A stretch of DNA of 64,000 bases from Parvularcula lutaonensis (GTDB taxonomy: Bacteria > Pseudomonadota > Alphaproteobacteria > Caulobacterales > Parvularculaceae). The stretch is taken from assembly GCF_014651915.1 (NCBI RefSeq), contig NZ_BMXU01000001.1, positions 310,001 to 374,000 of the forward strand, given 5' to 3'. The notes beneath the pieces are model-generated. The model did not search any database and was not told where the DNA came from. It worked only from the letters and a program-made list of their open reading frames with translations. Of the stretch, positions 44,824-56,007 are shown piece after piece; the stretch's first letter is position 1, and each line of letters opens with the position of its first letter. A program made the position numbers and the translations under genes.

Positions 44824-46071
44824 ATGGCGCGCAGACTGCTTCCGCTTTTGCTCCTGGTCCTGATCGCTGCCTGCGGACAGCGAGAGGAGGCGGGGGAGAA
44901 AGCGATGCCTTCCCCTGTCAGTGACGAAGCGCCTATCCCCGACGAGGCACCGTCCAATCCCGAGCCGCTACGCATTGCGACTTTCAATGTCTCGCTCTAT
45001 CGCTCCGAGGGCGGACAGCTTCTCGAGGACCTGCGCGAAGACGCCGATCCCCAGATCGAGGCGGTGCGCGAGGTCATCCGCCGGGTGGACCCGGACATCC
45101 TCGTCCTCAACGAGTTCGACCACGACGAGACTGGCGAGGCGCTGGCGCTGTTCGCGCAGCAGCTGGACCTCGGCTACGATCACTGGCTGAGCCTACCGTC
45201 GAATACCGGCGTGCCGAGCGGCGTCGACTATGACGGCGATGGCCGGGCCGACCATCCCGAGGGCAGCCGGGAGTACGGCAATGACAGCTTCGGCTACGGC
45301 GTTCATCCGGGGCAGTACGCGATAGCGATCCTTTCGCGTTACCCTATCGACAAGGGCGGCGTACGGACATTTCGCGAGCTTCTCTGGAAGGACATGCCGG
45401 GGAACCTTCTTCCCACGGAGTTCTACTCCGAAGAGGCGCAGCAGGTTTTCCGGCTCTCGTCCAAGACTCATGCCGACGTGCCGGTCATGGTCGGTGACGA
45501 GACCCTGCACATGATCCTCGCCCATCCGACACCGCCGGGTTTTGATGGACCCGAAGACCGGAACGGCCGCCGGAACCATGACGAAATTCGCTTGATCGAG
45601 AACTATATAGACGGCGCGGATTGGCTGGTGGATGACGCGGGCAAGGCAGGGGGCCTCGATGCCGGGGCCTATTTCGTCATCGCCGGCGATCTCAATGCAG
45701 ATCCTGTCGATGGGGACGTGCCCGACGGCATTGAGCCACACGCGATCGTCAGCCTGCTGCAGAACCCGCAGCTGACCGATCCTGAGCCGCGCAGCGCAGG
45801 CGGGGTAGAGGCTGCCGAGCGGCAGGGCGGCAACAATCTTCGCCAAAGCGGCGACCCGGCTCTCGATACCGGGGACTTCTCCGACAGCCGTGTCGGGAAT
45901 CTGCGCATCGACTATGTGCTGCCCTCGAGCAATCTTGACGTGGTGGGCAGCGGCGTCTTCTGGCCCGCCGAGGGCGAGGACGGCTTTGATCTGGTCGGGC
46001 CGGGCTTCCCGCCCGTGAGTTCGGACCACCGCATGGTCTGGGTCGACCTGCTGTTCCCGCCGGACGAGTGA
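44824..46071 (+). CDS. Lipoprotein of the endonuclease/exonuclease/phosphatase family
   Basis: 415 residues. A lipobox 'LLVLIAACGQ' gives a lipidated Cys at residue 17, so it is anchored in the envelope. The EEP fold is shown by 'PLRIATFNVSLYRSEGG', the metal-binding Glu in 'DILVLNEFDHDETGEAL', 'YFVIAGDLNADPVDGDV' (DxN) and the C-terminal 'VSSDHRMVWVDLL' (SDH). It is likely a periplasmic or surface metal-dependent phosphodiesterase acting on nucleic acids or phosphoesters. The next genes are another phosphoesterase and a lipid-kinase-like protein. Confidence 0.85.
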   Translation: MARRLLPLLLLVLIAACGQREEAGEKAMPSPVSDEAPIPDEAPSNPEPLRIATFNVSLYRSEGGQLLEDLREDADPQIEAVREVIRRVDPDILVLNEFDHDETGEALALFAQQLDLGYDHWLSLPSNTGVPSGVDYDGDGRADHPEGSREYGNDSFGYGVHPGQYAIAILSRYPIDKGGVRTFRELLWKDMPGNLLPTEFYSEEAQQVFRLSSKTHADVPVMVGDETLHMILAHPTPPGFDGPEDRNGRRNHDEIRLIENYIDGADWLVDDAGKAGGLDAGAYFVIAGDLNADPVDGDVPDGIEPHAIVSLLQNPQLTDPEPRSAGGVEAAERQGGNNLRQSGDPALDTGDFSDSRVGNLRIDYVLPSSNLDVVGSGVFWPAEGEDGFDLVGPGFPPVSSDHRMVWVDLLFPPDE

Positions 46072-46102
46072 GCCGAAGCGCGTTCTCGAGTGTTAGGGTT
46101 CC

Positions 46103-46915
46103 ATGACCCGGATCGCGCACCTTTCCGACCTGCATTTCGGTTCGACGGAACCGCGCCAGCTCGACGCATTGGCGCGGATTCTGGTCGCTGACGGTATCGA
46201 CCACGCGATCGTCACGGGGGACATCACCCAGGCCGGCCGGAAGAAGGAGTTCAGGGAAGCGGCGCATTGGTTTGCCAAGCTTCCAATGCCAGTGATCGCG
46301 ATCCCCGGAAATCACGACACGCCCGTCCACAATCTCGCGCGCAGGTTTCTCGAGCCTTGGAGCCGGTTCGAGGAAATAGCGGGCTTTCAGCAAGAGCCGA
46401 TCGTGCGGCACCGTGATTTCGTCTTTGCAGGACTCAACAGCGCCCGCCGGATGCGGCCGGGCCTCGACTGGTCAAAGGGCAAGCTGTCGACGAGACAGCT
46501 CGAACAGATCAAGCCTGCTTTTGAGGAAGCGGGGAGGCGCCTGCGCATCTGCGGCTTCCACCACCCTCTGCGCGGCTTTGACGATGGCGGTAGTGCCGGA
46601 CGGGCAGTTCTTCCAAAGACTGACGATATCCTGTCCGTCCTGACCGACGCGAAGGTCGACGTCGTGATGACCGGGCATGTCCACAAGACGCGGTTGCTTC
46701 GGATGGAGCACAATGGCTGGTCATTCGTCCTGAGCCAGGCAGGGACGGCGGTATCGACGAGGCTGCGCGGGGAACCTGCGAGCTACAATGTCCTGACGAT
46801 CGAGAGTGATCGAGAGATCGATCTTTCCGTTCACAGGTGGAACGAAGAGGGTTTCAGTGCGGAAGGCAGTGTCAGGTTCTTTCGAGATGAAGCCGGCTGG
46901 AGAGAGACGCCATGA
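46103..46915 (+). CDS. Calcineurin-like metallophosphoesterase
   Basis: 270 residues with the complete motif set: 'RIAHLSDLHFGST' (DxH), 'HAIVTGDITQAGR' (GD), 'VIAIPGNHDTPVHN' (GNHD), 'ICGFHHPL' and 'DVVMTGHVHKTRLL' (GHxH). It binds two metals and cleaves phosphomonoesters or diesters. No signal peptide, so it is cytoplasmic. Its stop overlaps the diacylglycerol-kinase-like start by ATGA, which suggests linked action on phospholipid or nucleotide derivatives. Confidence 0.9.
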   Translation: MTRIAHLSDLHFGSTEPRQLDALARILVADGIDHAIVTGDITQAGRKKEFREAAHWFAKLPMPVIAIPGNHDTPVHNLARRFLEPWSRFEEIAGFQQEPIVRHRDFVFAGLNSARRMRPGLDWSKGKLSTRQLEQIKPAFEEAGRRLRICGFHHPLRGFDDGGSAGRAVLPKTDDILSVLTDAKVDVVMTGHVHKTRLLRMEHNGWSFVLSQAGTAVSTRLRGEPASYNVLTIESDREIDLSVHRWNEEGFSAEGSVRFFRDEAGWRETP

Positions 46916-47805
46916 GCGCTGATTACCTCGTCCTCATCAATTCGAAATCCGGCCGTGCGAGCGCCGAAGGCCCAGAAAACATCGAGCGCGACTTGCGTAG
47001 CGTGCTGGACACTCGCGGCTCCACGGAGGTTCTGGTTGCCCCCGTCGAAGAGCTGATGGAGGTGGCGCGACAAAGCGGGAGCAGGGCGCTGGTCACGGTT
47101 GGTGGCGACGGCACGATCGCCGGTATCGCAAGCTGCGTCTACGGACGGAAAGATGCGCCGCTCTATATCCCGCTGCCCTATGGCACCGCGAACCTGATCC
47201 CGCGGGACCTCGGCATGCCGATGGATCCTGTGGAAGCGCTTCGGCTGTCGATCGATGCCCCGCCACGGAAGATCGACTTCGTCGACGCGCAGGGGAGGGC
47301 GCTTCTTCACTCCGCAGGCTTCGGCACATTCGCTGAGATTGCCGAGGCGCGGGAAGCTCTCCGGTCTGCACCGACCTTCGGCGACCGTGTGGGCGCTGCG
47401 CTGATGATGTGGGACCAGTTCCTCGAAACTGGCGAGGAGCCCTATCGGATCACCGTGGATGGCAAGCTTGTGGAGATCGAGTCGGCGGCAGTTTTCGTGT
47501 CGAATAACCCCATCACGGGCGGTCAGGGCGCCCTGCCGCTCCGCGAACGTCTCGATACCGGCCAGATCGTCGTCTATATCTCGCGCGGTCGTGGGGTTTT
47601 CGCTCTCGTCCAGCACGTTATCGAAGCGATGACCGGGCAGTTCGACGAGAGCCCGGAGTTCATCCGCGAGACGGGCCGCGAGGTCGAGATCGAAAGCCGC
47701 GGACACGGCCTCCACTATACCATTGACGGCGAGCCGGGGAGCAATCGCGACCGCATCAGGTTCACGATGTATCCGAGCTGCCTCACGGTGCCCGACCTCA
47801 GATAG
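46912..47805 (+). CDS. Diacylglycerol kinase family protein (YegS/DgkB-like)
   Basis: 297 residues. N-terminal kinase fold with 'YLVLINSKSGRAS', the nucleotide loop 'ALVTVGGDGTIAGIASCVYG' and the family segment 'YIPLPYGTANLIPRDLGMP', where the usual 'GTxND' is GTANL. The C-terminal half is the all-beta lipid-binding domain. Such enzymes phosphorylate diacylglycerol or related lipids at the membrane. Coupled by ATGA to the metallophosphoesterase. Confidence 0.85.
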   Translation: MSADYLVLINSKSGRASAEGPENIERDLRSVLDTRGSTEVLVAPVEELMEVARQSGSRALVTVGGDGTIAGIASCVYGRKDAPLYIPLPYGTANLIPRDLGMPMDPVEALRLSIDAPPRKIDFVDAQGRALLHSAGFGTFAEIAEAREALRSAPTFGDRVGAALMMWDQFLETGEEPYRITVDGKLVEIESAAVFVSNNPITGGQGALPLRERLDTGQIVVYISRGRGVFALVQHVIEAMTGQFDESPEFIRETGREVEIESRGHGLHYTIDGEPGSNRDRIRFTMYPSCLTVPDLR

Positions 47806-49835: not shown

Positions 49836-49912
49836 GCGGGTGTAGCTCAGTTGGTTAGAGTGCCGGCCTGTCACGCCGGAGGTCGCGGGTTCGAGCCCCG
49901 TCACTCGCGCCA
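49836..49912 (+). tRNA. tRNA-Asp (anticodon GTC)
   Basis: 77 bases with encoded CCA. Acceptor GCGGGTG pairs with CACTCGC (one G-U), D-loop AGTTGGTTAGA, anticodon loop CTGTCAC with GTC, T-loop TTCGAGC. A CCCGAC/GTCGGG hairpin lies a few bases before it. Confidence 0.96.
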
Positions 49913-49935: not shown

Positions 49936-50256
49936 GAAGATCAGACTTCTTGCAAATTCCAAAGCCATTTCCAGCCAGCGATAGGTCCGCTGGTTGCGCG
50001 GTTTCCTGAACCACACGACGCGAACCCTTGGCGCGGTGGAGCAAGTGAATCGATCCTTACCCGGATCGAAGTTTGTCCGGCAATACTGCCCTGCCGAGAT
50101 CTGAGGAAGTCGCTTCAGTCGCTGTCATTGTTTTGTCATCGCACATTGGCGGAACTGACATGTTGCGTCGCTAGCTGCGCCGCCATGGGGCGTCGGTGGA
50201 TGTTTTCAGGATCTCGCCCCGCAAAATTTGGCCGATCAAGAACCTCAGGGGTACCC
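49936..50256. other. Intergenic region upstream of the lipoprotein gene
   Basis: About 320 bp with no gene. It holds the Pho-box-like repeat at 50122-50139, and the mRNA leader of the lipoprotein must start downstream of it. Longer start choices for the lipoprotein (frame back to 50128) lie in this region but would destroy the signal peptide and run through the Pho box. Confidence 0.5.
50122..50139 (+). promoter_or_regulatory. Pho box (putative PhoB binding site)
   Basis: CTGTCAT (50122-50128), four-base spacer TGTT, then TTGTCAT (50133-50139). This is the two-repeat, 11-bp-spaced layout of PhoB sites, with 13 of 14 bases matching two CTGTCAT repeats. It lies 117 bp before the lipoprotein ATG, a suitable place for activation. 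It suggests the lipoprotein/TonB-receptor pair is induced by phosphate starvation. Confidence 0.65.
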
Positions 50257-53037
50257 ATGTCTTTTCGCTCTTCCGTCAGCCTCATCGCTCTCGCCCTTCT
50301 CGCAGCCTGCACGGCGGGGGAAGATATCGCTTCACCGGGCGCAACAAGCCCAGGCACCGGCGTCGGTGGCGGCGGAACGGGCGGCGGTGGCGGTACGGGT
50401 GGCGGCTCCGCCAGCTGCCCCGCAGGATTCGCCGAGGGCACTGGTGTCGGCAACCTGACCGTCTGTGAGATCTCGGGCCAGATCACGTCCAACCTGACAT
50501 TGCCCTTTGTCGATGGCGTCGCCTACAAGCTCGACGGTCGCGTTGACGTCGGCGTCGATATCGGCGCAGACGGAAATGCCGTCAATGGGGCGCGCGCGAC
50601 GCTGACGATCGAGCCTGGAGTGACTGTTTTCGGTAGTTCGGGCAGCGACTATCTGGTCGTGAACCGTGGATCGGAAATCGTTGCGGATGGTGCAGTCAGT
50701 GCACCGATCATTTTTACCAGCGAAGATGACCTCGTCCGCCAGGCCGACAGCGACCCGACGAATGACGATGGTGGCGATGCTATCGGCGAATGGGGCGGGC
50801 TGGTCATTCTGGGCCGGGCCCCGATCAACCGTTGCGCCGGGGCAGGTGCGACGCCGGGTTCGGTCGACTGCGAAAACGTCGTGGAAGGGGTGACCAACCC
50901 CGATGCGCTCTATGGTGGTGCGCTCTCGAGCGATCGGAGCGGCAAACTGAAGTACGTGCAGGTTCGGTTCGCCGGCTTTGCGATCAACGCGCAGGGCAAC
51001 GAGCTTAACGGTATCACTTTCGGCGGGGTCGGAAGCGAGACCGAAGTCGATTTCGTCCAGGTGCACAACAATTCCGACGATGGCGTTGAATTCTTCGGCG
51101 GCAATGTGAATGTCAGCCACCTCGTCCTGACGGGCAATGACGATGACTCGATCGACACCGACAACGGCTACCAAGGGAACATTCAGTTCGCTCTGGTCAT
51201 CCAGAGGGACAGTGGCGGCGACAATATTGTCGAGGCTTCCAGCGTGGCTCCGAATGCGACGCCTGCGTCGGATGCGACGATTGCCAACTTCACCTTCGTC
51301 GGTAATCGGACGAATGCCTTCCGTCTGAACACCGGCACGATCGGACAGTACCTGAATGGGGTCGTGGACTACGGACAAGAGTGCTTCCGGTGGCAGGACT
51401 CAGCCGGCGACGGAAACGCCTCATACAGCGCCCAGTTCGATCCGGCCTTCAATTCCGTTCTGTTCGACTGCGATGGCGGGGTGGCTACAAGCAATTCCGA
51501 AGGGCTCCTGGCGCAAGCCGCGATCGACGCGGACCCGAACAACGTCGTTGGGCCTACCTCGCTGGCGAGCCGTTTCTTCCCCGGCCCGGAAGAGGAAGAA
51601 GTGATCCCATTCGACCTTACGACCCTCCCCGGCGTGTTCTTCCAGGATACGGACTATATCGGCGCCTTTGCGCCTAGCGAGACCGAGACCAGCAACTGGG
51701 CAGCGGGTTGGACCTTCGCGCTGTTCCCAGACCCGGTGTGCCCTGTCGGGACCACCGATGCCGGGACTGCGATAGATGGGCAGACAGTTTGCGATATTCA
51801 GGGCACCATCACTGATCCCCTGCGGCTGACGCGCGGCAACCTCTACAGGCTCAACGGCCGTGTCGATGTCGGTGTGGATGTCGGCGCCGACGGCATGGAT
51901 CCGAACGGTGACCCGGCGACCCTGACCATCGAGTCGGGCGTGACCGTGTTCGGGAACAGCGGCGCGGACTACCTCGTGGTGAACCGCGGTTCGCAGATTT
52001 TCTCGAATGGAACGCAAACCGATCCTGTGATCTTCACGTCGCAGCCGGATCTCCTCAACCCGAACCGTGACGACACGGATAATATCAGCGAATGGGGCGG
52101 CATCGTCATCCTGGGCCGTGCACCGATCAACCGTTGTGCCGGTGCGGGGGCAACTCCTGGCAGCGTCAACTGCGAGAACGTCGTTGAAGGCGTCACCAAC
52201 CCAGACGCGCTCTATGGTGGTGCAGTCGCGGACGATAACAGCGGTTCACTCAGCTATACCCAAGTGAAATTCGCAGGATTTGCGATCAACGCGCAGGGCA
52301 ACGAACTCAACGGTATCACCTTCGGTGGTGTTGGCAGCGGCACGGAAGTCGACCACATCCAGGTCCACAACAATGCGGATGATGGGGTCGAGTTCTTCGG
52401 CGGCAATGTGAATGTCAGCCACCTGGTGCTCACCGGTAATGATGACGACTCGATCGACACCGACAACGGCTACCAAGGCAACATCCAGTTTGCTCTCGTG
52501 GTCCAGCGCATGAACGGTGGCGACAATATTGTCGAAGCATCGAGTGTTGCACCGGGCGCGACGTCGGCCTCCGATGCGACGATCGCCAATTTCACTTTCG
52601 TCGGTAACCGGTCCAACGCCTTCCGCCTGAACACCGGCACGATTGGCACATATGTGAACGGCGTCGTGGACTACGGCCAGGAGTGTTTCCGCTGGCAGGA
52701 CTCCGCAGGCAATGGTGTGGCCGGCTATCAGGCCGGTGCCGATCCTGCCTTCCAATCCGTGCTGTTCGACTGTGCTGGCGGGCTGGCAACCTCCAACTCC
52801 GACGTCGCCGCGGCCCAGGGTGCCGTGAACGCAGACCCGAACAACACAACAGGGCTAGCGGCCACGCTCAGTGCGACCTTCATCAATGGCGCCAACGAAG
52901 CGGGCGTGACGGCCGTCGATCCCGCAAGCCTGGACAGCTTCTTCACGTCCACGGATTATATCGGCGCGGTGCGCGATCTCAATGATCGCTGGTGGGCCGG
53001 ATGGACCTGCGGCCTCGAAGCGGGAAGCTCCTGCTGA
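50257..53037 (+). CDS. Surface lipoprotein built of two duplicated beta-helix-like halves
   Basis: 926 residues from ATG 50257 (AGGGG just upstream). Lipobox 'LALLAACTAG' puts the lipidated Cys at 18. A Gly/Thr-rich linker spans about 28-52. Two homologous halves follow, about 53-480 and 494-926, each with one small cysteine pair near its start ('SCPAGF...TVCEI', 'VCPVGT...TVCDI'). Both halves share long identical runs such as 'WGG.VILGRAPINRCAGAGA', 'FAGFAINAQGNELNGITFGG' and 'NVSHLVLTGNDDDSIDTDNG'. The Asn/Gly/Val periodicity suggests a right-handed parallel beta-helix. Such lipoproteins pair with TonB receptors as surface-exposed partners. The receptor gene follows 69 bp later, and a Pho box precedes. 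Confidence 0.82.
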   Translation: MSFRSSVSLIALALLAACTAGEDIASPGATSPGTGVGGGGTGGGGGTGGGSASCPAGFAEGTGVGNLTVCEISGQITSNLTLPFVDGVAYKLDGRVDVGVDIGADGNAVNGARATLTIEPGVTVFGSSGSDYLVVNRGSEIVADGAVSAPIIFTSEDDLVRQADSDPTNDDGGDAIGEWGGLVILGRAPINRCAGAGATPGSVDCENVVEGVTNPDALYGGALSSDRSGKLKYVQVRFAGFAINAQGNELNGITFGGVGSETEVDFVQVHNNSDDGVEFFGGNVNVSHLVLTGNDDDSIDTDNGYQGNIQFALVIQRDSGGDNIVEASSVAPNATPASDATIANFTFVGNRTNAFRLNTGTIGQYLNGVVDYGQECFRWQDSAGDGNASYSAQFDPAFNSVLFDCDGGVATSNSEGLLAQAAIDADPNNVVGPTSLASRFFPGPEEEEVIPFDLTTLPGVFFQDTDYIGAFAPSETETSNWAAGWTFALFPDPVCPVGTTDAGTAIDGQTVCDIQGTITDPLRLTRGNLYRLNGRVDVGVDVGADGMDPNGDPATLTIESGVTVFGNSGADYLVVNRGSQIFSNGTQTDPVIFTSQPDLLNPNRDDTDNISEWGGIVILGRAPINRCAGAGATPGSVNCENVVEGVTNPDALYGGAVADDNSGSLSYTQVKFAGFAINAQGNELNGITFGGVGSGTEVDHIQVHNNADDGVEFFGGNVNVSHLVLTGNDDDSIDTDNGYQGNIQFALVVQRMNGGDNIVEASSVAPGATSASDATIANFTFVGNRSNAFRLNTGTIGTYVNGVVDYGQECFRWQDSAGNGVAGYQAGADPAFQSVLFDCAGGLATSNSDVAAAQGAVNADPNNTTGLAATLSATFINGANEAGVTAVDPASLDSFFTSTDYIGAVRDLNDRWWAGWTCGLEAGSSC

Positions 53038-53045
53038 TCACGAAC

Positions 53046-53073
53046 AGAGAGGGGAGCTTCGGATCCCCTCTCT
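53046..53073 (+). terminator. 10-bp-stem hairpin between lipoprotein and receptor genes
   Basis: AGAGAGGGGA and TCCCCTCTCT form a perfect 10-bp stem with an eight-base loop (GCTTCGGA), 8 bp after the lipoprotein stop. No T-run follows, so it is more likely an mRNA-stabilising or attenuating element that lowers receptor expression relative to the lipoprotein than a full terminator. Confidence 0.6.
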
Positions 53074-53106
53074 ATTGATCTCAAAATTCAAATCTAGGTC
53101 TGGGCC

Positions 53107-55683
53107 ATGAATTCCAAACATAGTTTCTCCGCTTGGTTGCTAGCGTCGACACTGCTCGCACCAGCGCAAGCTTTCTCTCAGGACACGGACATGAGTTCGG
53201 ATGACGGCGGCGACGTCATCACCGTTCGCGGCGTGTTCATTCCCAACGAACAGGAATCGTCCTCGCAGGTTGCCACGTTCCTCGATGACGAGGATCTCGC
53301 GCGTACGGGTGACGCCACGGCTGCGGAGGCACTGACCCGACTGAGTGGCCTGAGTGTCGTCGGGGGCCGGTTCGCCTATATCCGGGGGCTCGGTGACCGT
53401 TATTCCTCGGCGCTTCTCAACGGCTCGCCCCTTCCGAGCCCCGATCCCTTGCGCCGGACTGTGCCGCTTGACCTGTTCCCCTCGAACATCCTGTCGGGCG
53501 CGGCGGTCCAGAAGACGTTTTCCGCGGACTATCCGGGAGAATTCGGCGGCGGGATCATTGATCTGCGTACGACGCGCCTTCCTTCGGAACCCTTCCTCAC
53601 CCTGAAGGCTGGCTCGGCCTACAATTCCGAGACGACCGGAAAGGACGGGCTTTTCGTTCGTGGCGGCGATTCCGACTGGACGGGTTTCAGCTTCGGCCTC
53701 AGGGATGTCCCGGATCCATTGCAGGCGGTTCTTGATTCGGACCAAAGGCTCAACGAGCTTTCGGACAGGCAAATCGAGATCGTTGGTGAAAGCCTGATCA
53801 ACTCGCCGCTGACCGTGATCCAGTCCGGGGAGCTAGGACCGAATTGGAATGGCTCGATCGAGGGAGGCACGTCCTTCCTGAAGGGTGACCTTGAAATCGG
53901 TTTGGTCGGTGTTGTTGGCTACAATCAACAATGGACGACCGAGCGTGCGAAACGGCAGACGGTTCGTGGTGATGTGCTTGCCTTCGATTTCGATGCCACG
54001 GAAACGATTCTGGATGTCACGGCAAATGCTCTGACCTCGGCATCAGCCAACTGGGGCCAGCAGGAAATCCAGTCCACGCTGTTCTACGTTCACTCGACGT
54101 CGAAAGAGGCCCAGATCTCTGAGGGCCTCGACTTCGATGCCCAGGGAGAAAACTCGTTCACGGAGAGTTCTGGCTGGTACGAGCGTGAACTGATCATGTT
54201 CCAGACCAGTGGCGATCACGTTCTGGGCGATTTCGAGCTGAATTGGCGCGGCGCTCTCGCGGAATCCTCACGCGATGCGCCTTATGAGCGATTCGTCCAA
54301 CGTGAAGTCGACGACACGGGCACGCCGAGATACTCCGTGGCCAACCGAAACGGTACCAACTTTTCGTTTCTCGAGGACCAGGTCGCGAGCGGCGGGGCCG
54401 ATCTCTCCTACTCGGCGATGATGTTCGACGGGCTGAACCAAATTTTCACCGTCGGCTACGATTTCTCGACCACGGAGCGGACCTACGACTTTTTCTCCTT
54501 CCGGTTTGCCGGGGGCAACTCGCTGCCTGATGACGTCCAGCTCGCGCGAACGGACTTCCTGTTTTCGCCTGACAATATCGACCCGGCGCGGTTCGAGTTG
54601 ATCGAGGTTTCTTCGGTCAACGATTCCTACGAGGCCGAACTCACGGTGAATGCAGCTTTCGCGCAGGCGGATCTTGAGCTGACGCCGTTCATTCGCTCGA
54701 CATTGGGTGTGCGCTACGAAGACGCCGAGCAATTCGTCTTCACCCGCGACCGGTTCGGAAATGTCGGTACACGTTCCGATCTCAACAATGATTACGTCCT
54801 TCCGGCTGCCACGATTACGTGGAACTTCGCAGACGACATGCAGCTCCGTTTTGGTTACTCCGAGACGATCACGCGCCCGCAGTTCCGCGAACTGGCTCGC
54901 TCGTCCTATTTCGATCCGCAGAACGACCGAGTCTATCGAGGGAATGATGGGCTGATCGACAGCCAGCTGACCAATTATGACGCCCGTGTGGAATGGTATC
55001 TGGGCAGGGAACAGTTCGTCACCCTTGCCGGCTTCTACAAGGAAATCGAAAACCCGATTGAAGAGATCCAGATCGAAAACGGAACCTTCGTTTTCGAGAC
55101 GACGTTCATCAACTCGCCGAAGGCCGAGTTGTTCGGTCTGGAGGCGGAGTATCGTAACACGTTCATGATGCCGTTTGGCGGGGCGTGGTTCGAGGACCGT
55201 GACTGGCTGTTCTCGGCCAACTACACCTACACCAATTCCGAAGTCCAGGCGGAAGAGGGCGACCTGATCGTTGATCCGTTGTCAGGTCGCTTGGTCGAAG
55301 CTTCACTCTTCGGGCTGGATGGTGCTGACCTGCAAGGCGCACCAGAGCATATCGCGAACACCCAGTTCGGATGGGAGAGTGACCGGGAGCAGATGACCCT
55401 GCTCGTCGGCTATGTCAGCAATCGTATTCTCCAGCGCGGGATCCCGCTCGCCGGAGCCGAGCTGCCCGACATTGTCGAGGAGCCAGGCGTTCAACTCGAC
55501 CTTGTCTATCGCAGGGATTTCGAAGTGAAGGGGCGCGACTTTACCCTTGGGATCAGCGGCCGAAACCTTCTAAATACAGAACATCGTGAGTTCCAGAACA
55601 GCGGTGGCTCGCTCGGGGAAACTGAGTTCAACACCTATGACCGGGGGATGTCACTGTCTGCGAGCCTTTCGGCCTCGTTCTGA
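53107..55683 (+). CDS. TonB-dependent outer-membrane receptor
   Basis: 858 residues. Signal peptide 1-25 ('WLLASTLLAPAQAFSQ'), TonB box-like 'DVITVRG' near 35, then the plug with 'ATAAEALTRLSGLSVVGGRFAYIRGLGDRY' (in parts) and 'NGSPLPSPDPLRRTVPLDLF'. The barrel ends 'GMSLSASLSASF', with terminal Phe for outer-membrane insertion. It imports a ligand using TonB-ExbBD energy. Ligand unknown. The Pho box and the adjacent lipoprotein suggest a phosphorus-containing substrate captured at the surface, as SusC/SusD-like pairs do for glycans, which is inference. An intrinsic terminator follows at 55706. Confidence 0.93.
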   Translation: MNSKHSFSAWLLASTLLAPAQAFSQDTDMSSDDGGDVITVRGVFIPNEQESSSQVATFLDDEDLARTGDATAAEALTRLSGLSVVGGRFAYIRGLGDRYSSALLNGSPLPSPDPLRRTVPLDLFPSNILSGAAVQKTFSADYPGEFGGGIIDLRTTRLPSEPFLTLKAGSAYNSETTGKDGLFVRGGDSDWTGFSFGLRDVPDPLQAVLDSDQRLNELSDRQIEIVGESLINSPLTVIQSGELGPNWNGSIEGGTSFLKGDLEIGLVGVVGYNQQWTTERAKRQTVRGDVLAFDFDATETILDVTANALTSASANWGQQEIQSTLFYVHSTSKEAQISEGLDFDAQGENSFTESSGWYERELIMFQTSGDHVLGDFELNWRGALAESSRDAPYERFVQREVDDTGTPRYSVANRNGTNFSFLEDQVASGGADLSYSAMMFDGLNQIFTVGYDFSTTERTYDFFSFRFAGGNSLPDDVQLARTDFLFSPDNIDPARFELIEVSSVNDSYEAELTVNAAFAQADLELTPFIRSTLGVRYEDAEQFVFTRDRFGNVGTRSDLNNDYVLPAATITWNFADDMQLRFGYSETITRPQFRELARSSYFDPQNDRVYRGNDGLIDSQLTNYDARVEWYLGREQFVTLAGFYKEIENPIEEIQIENGTFVFETTFINSPKAELFGLEAEYRNTFMMPFGGAWFEDRDWLFSANYTYTNSEVQAEEGDLIVDPLSGRLVEASLFGLDGADLQGAPEHIANTQFGWESDREQMTLLVGYVSNRILQRGIPLAGAELPDIVEEPGVQLDLVYRRDFEVKGRDFTLGISGRNLLNTEHREFQNSGGSLGETEFNTYDRGMSLSASLSASF

Positions 55684-55705
55684 TACCGCTTCTCTACGCC
55701 GAAGG

Positions 55706-55732
55706 AAAAGCGCCCCCTTGCGGGCGCTTTTT
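55706..55732 (+). terminator. Rho-independent terminator after the TonB receptor
   Basis: AAAAGCGCCC pairs with GGGCGCTTTT (10-bp stem, six-base loop) followed by TT, 23 bp after the receptor stop. Confidence 0.88.
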
Positions 55733-56007
55733 CGATGTGCGGTTTCCATTGTTCAGGGATTATGCCGGTCGCCCCATGACCCGATGAAAGCGCGTGTGCA
55801 GAGGACGTTCAAGAGGCGGAAGGTCTCATCACGTCTAGATGCCCTGTCTTCGCTCTTCGAATCTTTTTTGAGGTGTCGGCATCTTGCCAAACCGCGAAGC
55901 GTGTATGGCATGGTATGTATTCTGAACGAAAGCTGCGGCGCTTGTCGCTTTCCTGGAAAGCTCCTTGCGCGCATCGCCTTGGGAAGGGGCGGGGGAGGAG
56001 CTGGTGG
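55733..56007. other. Intergenic region without a clear gene
   Basis: About 275 bp between the terminator of the receptor operon and the convergent stress-island genes. Short frames on both strands have no SD or recognisable features. Confidence 0.45.

Follow-up and report, generated by a model that had tools for sequence, protein, structure and literature searches.

Which kind of system is encoded where a Pho box precedes a lipoprotein gene and a TonB-dependent receptor gene, and what could it do for the cell? The question is raised by a locus of Parvularcula lutaonensis (assembly GCF_014651915.1, contig NZ_BMXU01000001.1, positions 310,001-374,000; this whole stretch of 64,000 nt is called the window here, and plain coordinates are positions in it). 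A first-pass annotation, made from the sequence, had read this locus as a phosphate-starvation uptake pair whose lipoprotein architecture matched no characterised system. Our results suggest that the two genes probably form a phosphorus-scavenging unit under PhoB control, of the same kind as ElpS/CC0171 of Caulobacter crescentus, in which a lipoprotein would capture its ligand, presumably a phosphorus compound, at the cell surface and hand it to the receptor. The locus comprises the following features.

50122-50139, plus strand: Pho box proper, units 1 and 2 (CTGTCAT and TTGTCAT) of an 11-bp direct-repeat array; an exact match, in an array that recurs in orthologs
50144-50161, plus strand: array units 3 (CATTGGC, degenerate) and 4 (CTGACAT), in register with units 1 and 2; the alignment with 27 orthologous promoters places both on consensus units 3 and 4
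50170-50176, plus strand: possible -10 element GCTAGCT, aligning with a CTA found after the last unit in many orthologs
50257-53037, plus strand: ElpS-family lipoprotein gene, 926 aa, with lipobox Cys18, a Gly-rich linker and two predicted beta-helix modules (sequence, homology, predicted structure)
50416-51717, plus strand: lipoprotein module 1, about residues 54-487 (identity to module 2, AlphaFold model)
51718-53034, plus strand: lipoprotein module 2, about residues 488-926 (identity to module 1, AlphaFold model, invariant residues common to both modules)
53046-53073, plus strand: intercistronic hairpin lacking a U tract (-26.1 kcal/mol and z -2.1 over 82 nt)
53107-55683, plus strand: CC0171-like TonB-dependent receptor gene, 858 aa (Pfam Plug and barrel, structure model, identity to the receptor of a related genome)
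53212-53226, plus strand: TonB-box-like DVITV (sequence and conservation)
55704-55733, plus strand: terminator-like stem-loop whose 12-bp stem includes a T run (-20.9 kcal/mol and z -2.4 over 52 nt)
49836-49912: tRNA-Asp gene, just upstream of the box

As published, the gene for ElpS (CC0170 / CCNA_00169) lies upstream of those for the receptor CC0171 and GspC; the protein is made under phosphate starvation, lipidated, bound to the outer membrane and surface-exposed, as judged by its accessibility to proteinase K, while its release depends on the type II secretion system (T2SS) and can be blocked with protease inhibitors (PMC2996285). A place of the lipoprotein gene beside the type II secretion genes has been published for four species. 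When phosphate is short, the elpS promoter is induced in a PhoB-dependent manner (PMC5172544), and the T2SS and several TonB receptors have been assigned to the PhoB regulon (PMC11208175).

The comparison with ElpS was made through a 518-aa protein of a genome of the same order (G190, probably a Caulobacter), which stood in for the ElpS record. We take this protein as ElpS-like because its lipobox and cleavage points (LAGC at 17-20, Asn38), together with the gene order (it is followed by a receptor, gspC and gspD), match those published for ElpS. The window lipoprotein is 38% identical to it in module 2 and 36% in module 1, and the window receptor is 36% identical to the neighbouring receptor. 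Since both modules resemble a protein bearing the published ElpS landmarks, the window pair belongs, on homology, to the ElpS/CC0171 kind, as a new member whose lipoprotein has two domains. The earlier remark that no characterised system has this lipoprotein architecture is not supported, as ElpS is a homolog, albeit with one module. ElpS is also the one studied member found among open-licence PMC papers, and has been left without a biochemical role. Both systems consist of homologous genes in the same order, a lipoprotein with a lipobox and then a TonB-dependent receptor, and share a phosphate-starvation control of the PhoB type, which is shown in Caulobacter and predicted for the window. In contrast, the window lipoprotein is built of two modules, not one, its gene pair lies beside the tRNA-Asp gene rather than in a type II secretion locus, its Pho box is clearer, and its genome lacks a PstB or PstS match over cut-off.

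The lipoprotein carries a lipobox (LAAC) with Cys18 and Thr at +2, which predicts lipidation. Over 435 aa, its halves share 70% identity, and the AlphaFold model (pLDDT 85.7, pTM 0.77) shows two beta-helix modules, in agreement with the duplicated, beta-helix-like lipoprotein of the first-pass annotation. There is no Pfam or NCBIfam match over cut-off for this protein, the family profile retrieves no sequence relative in the PDB, and Pfam Beta_helix gives weak matches in 4 of 36 family members. The best structural neighbours of the model are PL6 alginate lyases, other beta-helix carbohydrate enzymes and phage tailspikes. Foldseek ranks a PL6 alginate lyase first (E 4e-4); TM-scores are near 0.2, and support is therefore limited to the fold class, which the window lipoprotein has in common with the PL6 lyases and other right-handed beta-helix proteins; the low TM-score and the lack of PDB sequence relatives set it apart from them. 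At the level of residues, 29 positions are invariant at equal places of both modules in all 36 aligned sequences, including Asn251, Asp274/275, Glu278, Asp296/297 and Asp300, each with a copy at +434 in module 2, so that both modules look functional. The conserved acidic and amide residues are spaced 22-25 residues apart, before successive strands, and on account of this spacing they may form a stacked site that binds, or acts on, a phosphorus-bearing polymer or ester with the help of a metal.

The receptor has Plug and barrel domains over the Pfam cut-offs, the TonB-box-like DVITV at residues 36-40 (Asp36 and Ile38 are invariant in 21 of 21 sequences) and a C-terminal Phe, as previously annotated. 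The solved structures closest to its model (pLDDT 87.4) are iron or cofactor TonB transporters, including PqqU, FecA and PfeA, with SusC structures lower among the generic fold matches. The likeness to SusCD systems that had been proposed stands as an analogy, a surface lipoprotein gene adjoining a TonB-dependent receptor gene in both cases, and not as membership. The receptor matched no SusC-named model in Pfam or NCBIfam and scored 203 bits with TIGR01782, under the cut-off of 310; the lipoprotein matched no SusD-named model in either database up to E 1 and is modelled as a beta-helix, a fold from which that of SusD is distinct. Membership in SusCD was rejected on these grounds.

The pairing of the two genes is steady in relatives. 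In the taxonomic family of the window, the lipoprotein was found in 44 of 62 genomes, and in all 20 loci fetched from these 44 the receptor gene adjoins it. From a wider scan, we considered the best 80 of at least 558 confirmed places (hereafter the named loci), which span genera of Caulobacterales and Sphingomonadales, Kordiimonas, genera of Alteromonadales, SAR86, Xanthomonas, Saprospiraceae and Flavobacteriales. The receptor gene adjoins in 77 of these 80, on the upstream side in three of them, and in the remaining three (L101, L121, L134) the lipoprotein gene runs off the contig end. Together with the published exposure of ElpS, these observations support a surface location by homology and a constant receptor partner for the window lipoprotein, as the first-pass annotation had supposed. 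The number of modules varies: a motif expected once per module was counted once in 34, twice in 38, three times in six and not at all in two of the 80 named proteins, with fragments counting low. Four gammaproteobacterial open-frame proteins of 1328-1373 aa (L107, L115, L128, L132) have, by their length, apparently three modules. In Xanthomonas arboricola (L141:5530-7275), the lipoprotein gene is split over two open frames, which may be real or a sequencing error.

The linkage to type II secretion genes is looser. Within the fetched stretch, gspC or gspD accompanies the pair in 15 of the 20 family loci; the figure is 19 of 22 for additional loci from the order and 31 of 67 for the named loci with room, and the position is often directly downstream of the receptor gene. 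The pair is unlinked to secretion genes in 5 of 20 family loci and in 20 of the 22 gammaproteobacterial loci with room (from a list of 23, with L129, L140 and L141 classed as "other"), and T2SS linkage is therefore not taken to define the ElpS family. An in-period TGTCA pair, of the type described next, lies within the 300 bp before gspC in 5 of 61 related genes, so the secretion operon may have its own Pho-type sites in some species.

The promoter region provides the link to phosphate. The box CTGTCATTGTTTTGTCAT (CTGTCAT-N4-TTGTCAT) is separated by 117 bp from the ATG at 50257, as annotated, and its repeat unit is the textbook Pho-box consensus. Pattern matches with up to three mismatches number three in the window, against 2.69 in shuffles, which is uninformative; as loose matches are this frequent in shuffles, a single site in the window proves little alone. 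Over the whole genome (2.95 Mb), the same pattern gives 146 sites, against 32 for the reversed pattern. The genome scan that had been proposed found no second exact copy, and the runner-up, with one mismatch, stands before no obvious gene on its strand. This runner-up (L002:1490-1518, minus strand) is a three-unit Pho-type array of 11-bp period, and on its other side begins a gene whose 104-aa product looks exported and has no Pfam match.

More informative are the orthologous promoters. Across 28 upstream regions from the family, among them that of the window locus, the best sites together have 99 mismatches against the textbook box, whereas 100 shuffles gave a mean of 157 and a minimum of 146, and 17 of the 28 reach p 0.05 or less individually against shuffles. 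In the last 170 bp of these regions, the coding strand carries 37 exact copies of TGTCA and the opposite strand nine, and close pairs are spaced by 11 (five pairs), 22 (seven), 33 (five), 15 (one) and 27 bp (one), that is, by multiples of 11 bp in 17 of 19 cases. Over 250 bp, 19 pairs are in period and 14 out of it, with 0 and 0 on the opposite strand. The alignment of these promoters yields a frame of four units followed by a CTA element, in which units 1, 2 and 4 of the window are good and unit 3 is degenerate. The CTA may be a -10 element; a sigma-70 consensus scan reported no promoter at 50170-50176. The named loci behave similarly. Of their 80 upstream regions, 66 were usable (seven had no usable start, one too little flank and six a start judged wrongly picked), and 18 of these contain exact TGTCA pairs in period, compared with 3 of 66 when the opposite strand is read and 20 of 5338 tiles cut from these loci. 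The 121 stretches that precede receptor genes, many of them located within the lipoprotein gene, contain no such pair. When the 11-bp periodicity of all 5-mers was ranked over 72 named upstream regions, pieces of CTGTCAT/C came first in both subsets. The window box makes up the first two units of a four-unit array of 11-bp period that recurs, with exceptions, before alpha- and gammaproteobacterial orthologs, and pair and box co-occur in relatives to that extent.

The genome (99.98% complete) encodes the corresponding regulators. PhoR-, PhoU- and PhoB-like genes lie side by side (L092:7625-10622) with no pst genes between them, and the PhoB protein scores 352 bits against a cut-off of 296.2; seven further full-length regulators score below it. 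The arrays before orthologs, a PhoB over cut-off and the published PhoB dependence of elpS together support the predicted phosphate-starvation control of the window pair, in line with the first-pass annotation. The uptake side differs: the best PstB match reaches 140 bits (cut-off 343), PstS (TIGR02136) 50 bits (cut-off 207), and no PHO4-family transporter was found, a family also missing from 4 of 14 control genomes. Thus, the genome yielded no PstB, PstS or PHO4 carrier in a search that did not include PstA, PstC or other carriers. The weak TIGR02136 match was rejected as a PstS locus, being surrounded by non-pst genes.

PstB is over cut-off in 11 of the 62 family genomes and below it in 51, and its distribution is opposed to that of the pair: two genomes have both, nine PstB only, 42 the pair only and nine neither (Fisher p 9e-5, genomes being counted without correction for relatedness in this and the following tests). 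With a PstB threshold of 290 bits, the counts in the same order are 6, 9, 38 and 9 (p 0.007); in the 42 better genomes, they are 1, 4, 32 and 5 (p 0.005), or 5, 4, 28 and 5 at 290 bits (p 0.08). Outside the family, PstB is over cut-off in 190 of 199 sampled genomes and the pair is present in 140, including 4 of the 9 genomes without PstB. Since genomes outside the family mostly have PstB while the pair is widely present too, the idea that the pair replaces Pst fails as a general rule; the tendency to exclude each other is seen within the family.

A coherent mechanism can be proposed from these data. Under phosphate limitation, PhoB would bind the four-unit array and switch on the lipoprotein gene, with the receptor gene probably co-transcribed through the 69-bp gap that contains the hairpin. 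Transcription may end at the stem-loop after the receptor gene, annotated as a strong terminator; it does fold as a 12-bp stem, and it is missing from the output of a simple terminator scan, presumably because its Ts sit inside the stem. The lipoprotein would be lipidated and displayed on the outer surface, as shown in the Caulobacter relative, each beta-helix module would offer its stack of acidic and amide residues as a metal-assisted binding or catalytic site, and the receptor would draw on TonB energy to import the ligand, as captured or after processing.

Several observations weigh against this scheme. At the promoter, the best site misses p 0.05 in 11 of the 28 family regions, five of which (L041, L044, L052, L055, L059) do no better than shuffles, 48 of the 66 named promoters have no exact in-period TGTCA pair, and the promoter of the G190 elpS-like gene shows a weak site only (three mismatches). 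In the Caulobacter work, cc0171 is reported as constitutive, unlike elpS, and intracellular phosphate as unchanged on a shift to poor medium (both as data not shown); deletion of elpS had no effect on phosphatase activity, and the purified protein showed no such activity (PMC2996285). As for the protein, the structure search indicates a fold class, with a single PDB match at E under 0.001, and the residue stack was derived from sequence and secondary structure.

Part of this evidence would fit the proposal of the ElpS authors that the lipoprotein works outside the cell, activating or carrying a secreted phosphatase; the receptor would then import the products or have only a loose connection to the system. 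In concentrated supernatants, phosphatase activity went up when elpS was overexpressed, although the purified protein had none (PMC2996285), the constitutive cc0171 points the same way, and genes for an endonuclease/exonuclease/phosphatase-family lipoprotein and a metallophosphoesterase lie about 3-5 kb upstream in the window. We consider this unlikely, if deserving attention, since the receptor gene adjoins in all 77 named loci whose lipoprotein gene is not cut by a contig end, including those that show no secretion genes in the vicinity (36 of the 67 with room). The structural neighbours and the scattered Beta_helix matches could instead suggest that the pair captures or degrades a polysaccharide, as a beta-helix lyase or hydrolase with its transporter, Pho control then reflecting phosphorylated or phosphate-masking glycans. 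The TM-scores are low for such a claim, there is no PDB sequence relative, and none of the four window neighbours scanned with Pfam is a carbohydrate enzyme, which makes this explanation improbable.

On the regulatory side, the array might be bound by another regulator of the OmpR family, given the seven further candidates below the PhoB cut-off and the lack of a detected PstB or PstS to feed PhoR. This seems very improbable, because the array unit is the textbook Pho-box sequence and the genome has one PhoB over cut-off; induction of the elpS promoter also needs PhoB in Caulobacter (PMC5172544). We give even less credit to a receptor importing iron or metal chelates with an indirect phosphate link: the solved receptors closest to it are iron and cofactor transporters, but the recurring promoter repeat is Pho-type, and published ElpS data disfavour it (PMC2996285). 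The PhoB-controlled scavenging unit is thus retained as the probable reading of the locus.

The window copy differs in location and kinship from the copies of its own genus. In P. lutaonensis, gspD is on another contig, and the T2SS locus (L187:8695-15442) has gspO and gspC about 180 bp apart without the pair between them; in five genomes of the same genus (L076, L082, L084, L207, L208), the pair is next to gspC. The trees of lipoprotein and receptor share the same two deep clades, separated by a branch with 100/100 support. In both, the window protein shares a clade with homologs from two other families and from other genera within its own (best identity 67%); the five same-genus copies, 43-47% identical to it, fall in the other clade. 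The position of the window copy inside its clade is not settled by these trees. Horizontal replacement is the simplest reading of this kinship, and the copy may alternatively be an old paralog. A tRNA-linked island was rejected, as no duplicate of the tRNA end of 12 bp or more was found elsewhere in the window. About 2-5 kb before the box (44824-47805), consecutive genes encode the endonuclease/exonuclease/phosphatase-family lipoprotein and the metallophosphoesterase mentioned above and a diacylglycerol-kinase-like protein.

Together, these observations describe a family whose window member has no Pfam or NCBIfam match over cut-off and whose profile finds no sequence relative in the PDB, but which is tied to one kind of receptor and to Pho-type arrays in at least two classes of proteobacteria. 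Its steady pairing, its variation in module number and its stack of conserved residues provide a testable capture-and-import model for the missing biochemical role of ElpS. As a tentative and rather doubtful extension, ElpS-type lipoproteins and their receptors could represent a further surface-lipoprotein/TonB-receptor capture architecture for organic phosphorus, with one, two or three modules, in Alphaproteobacteria, Gammaproteobacteria and Bacteroidota, and could be a main entry route of phosphorus in the family of the window, where 51 of 62 genomes lack a PstB over cut-off. With no PstB, PstS or PHO4 found, the lineage of P. lutaonensis is well suited for asking how phosphorus enters the cell and how PhoR senses it.

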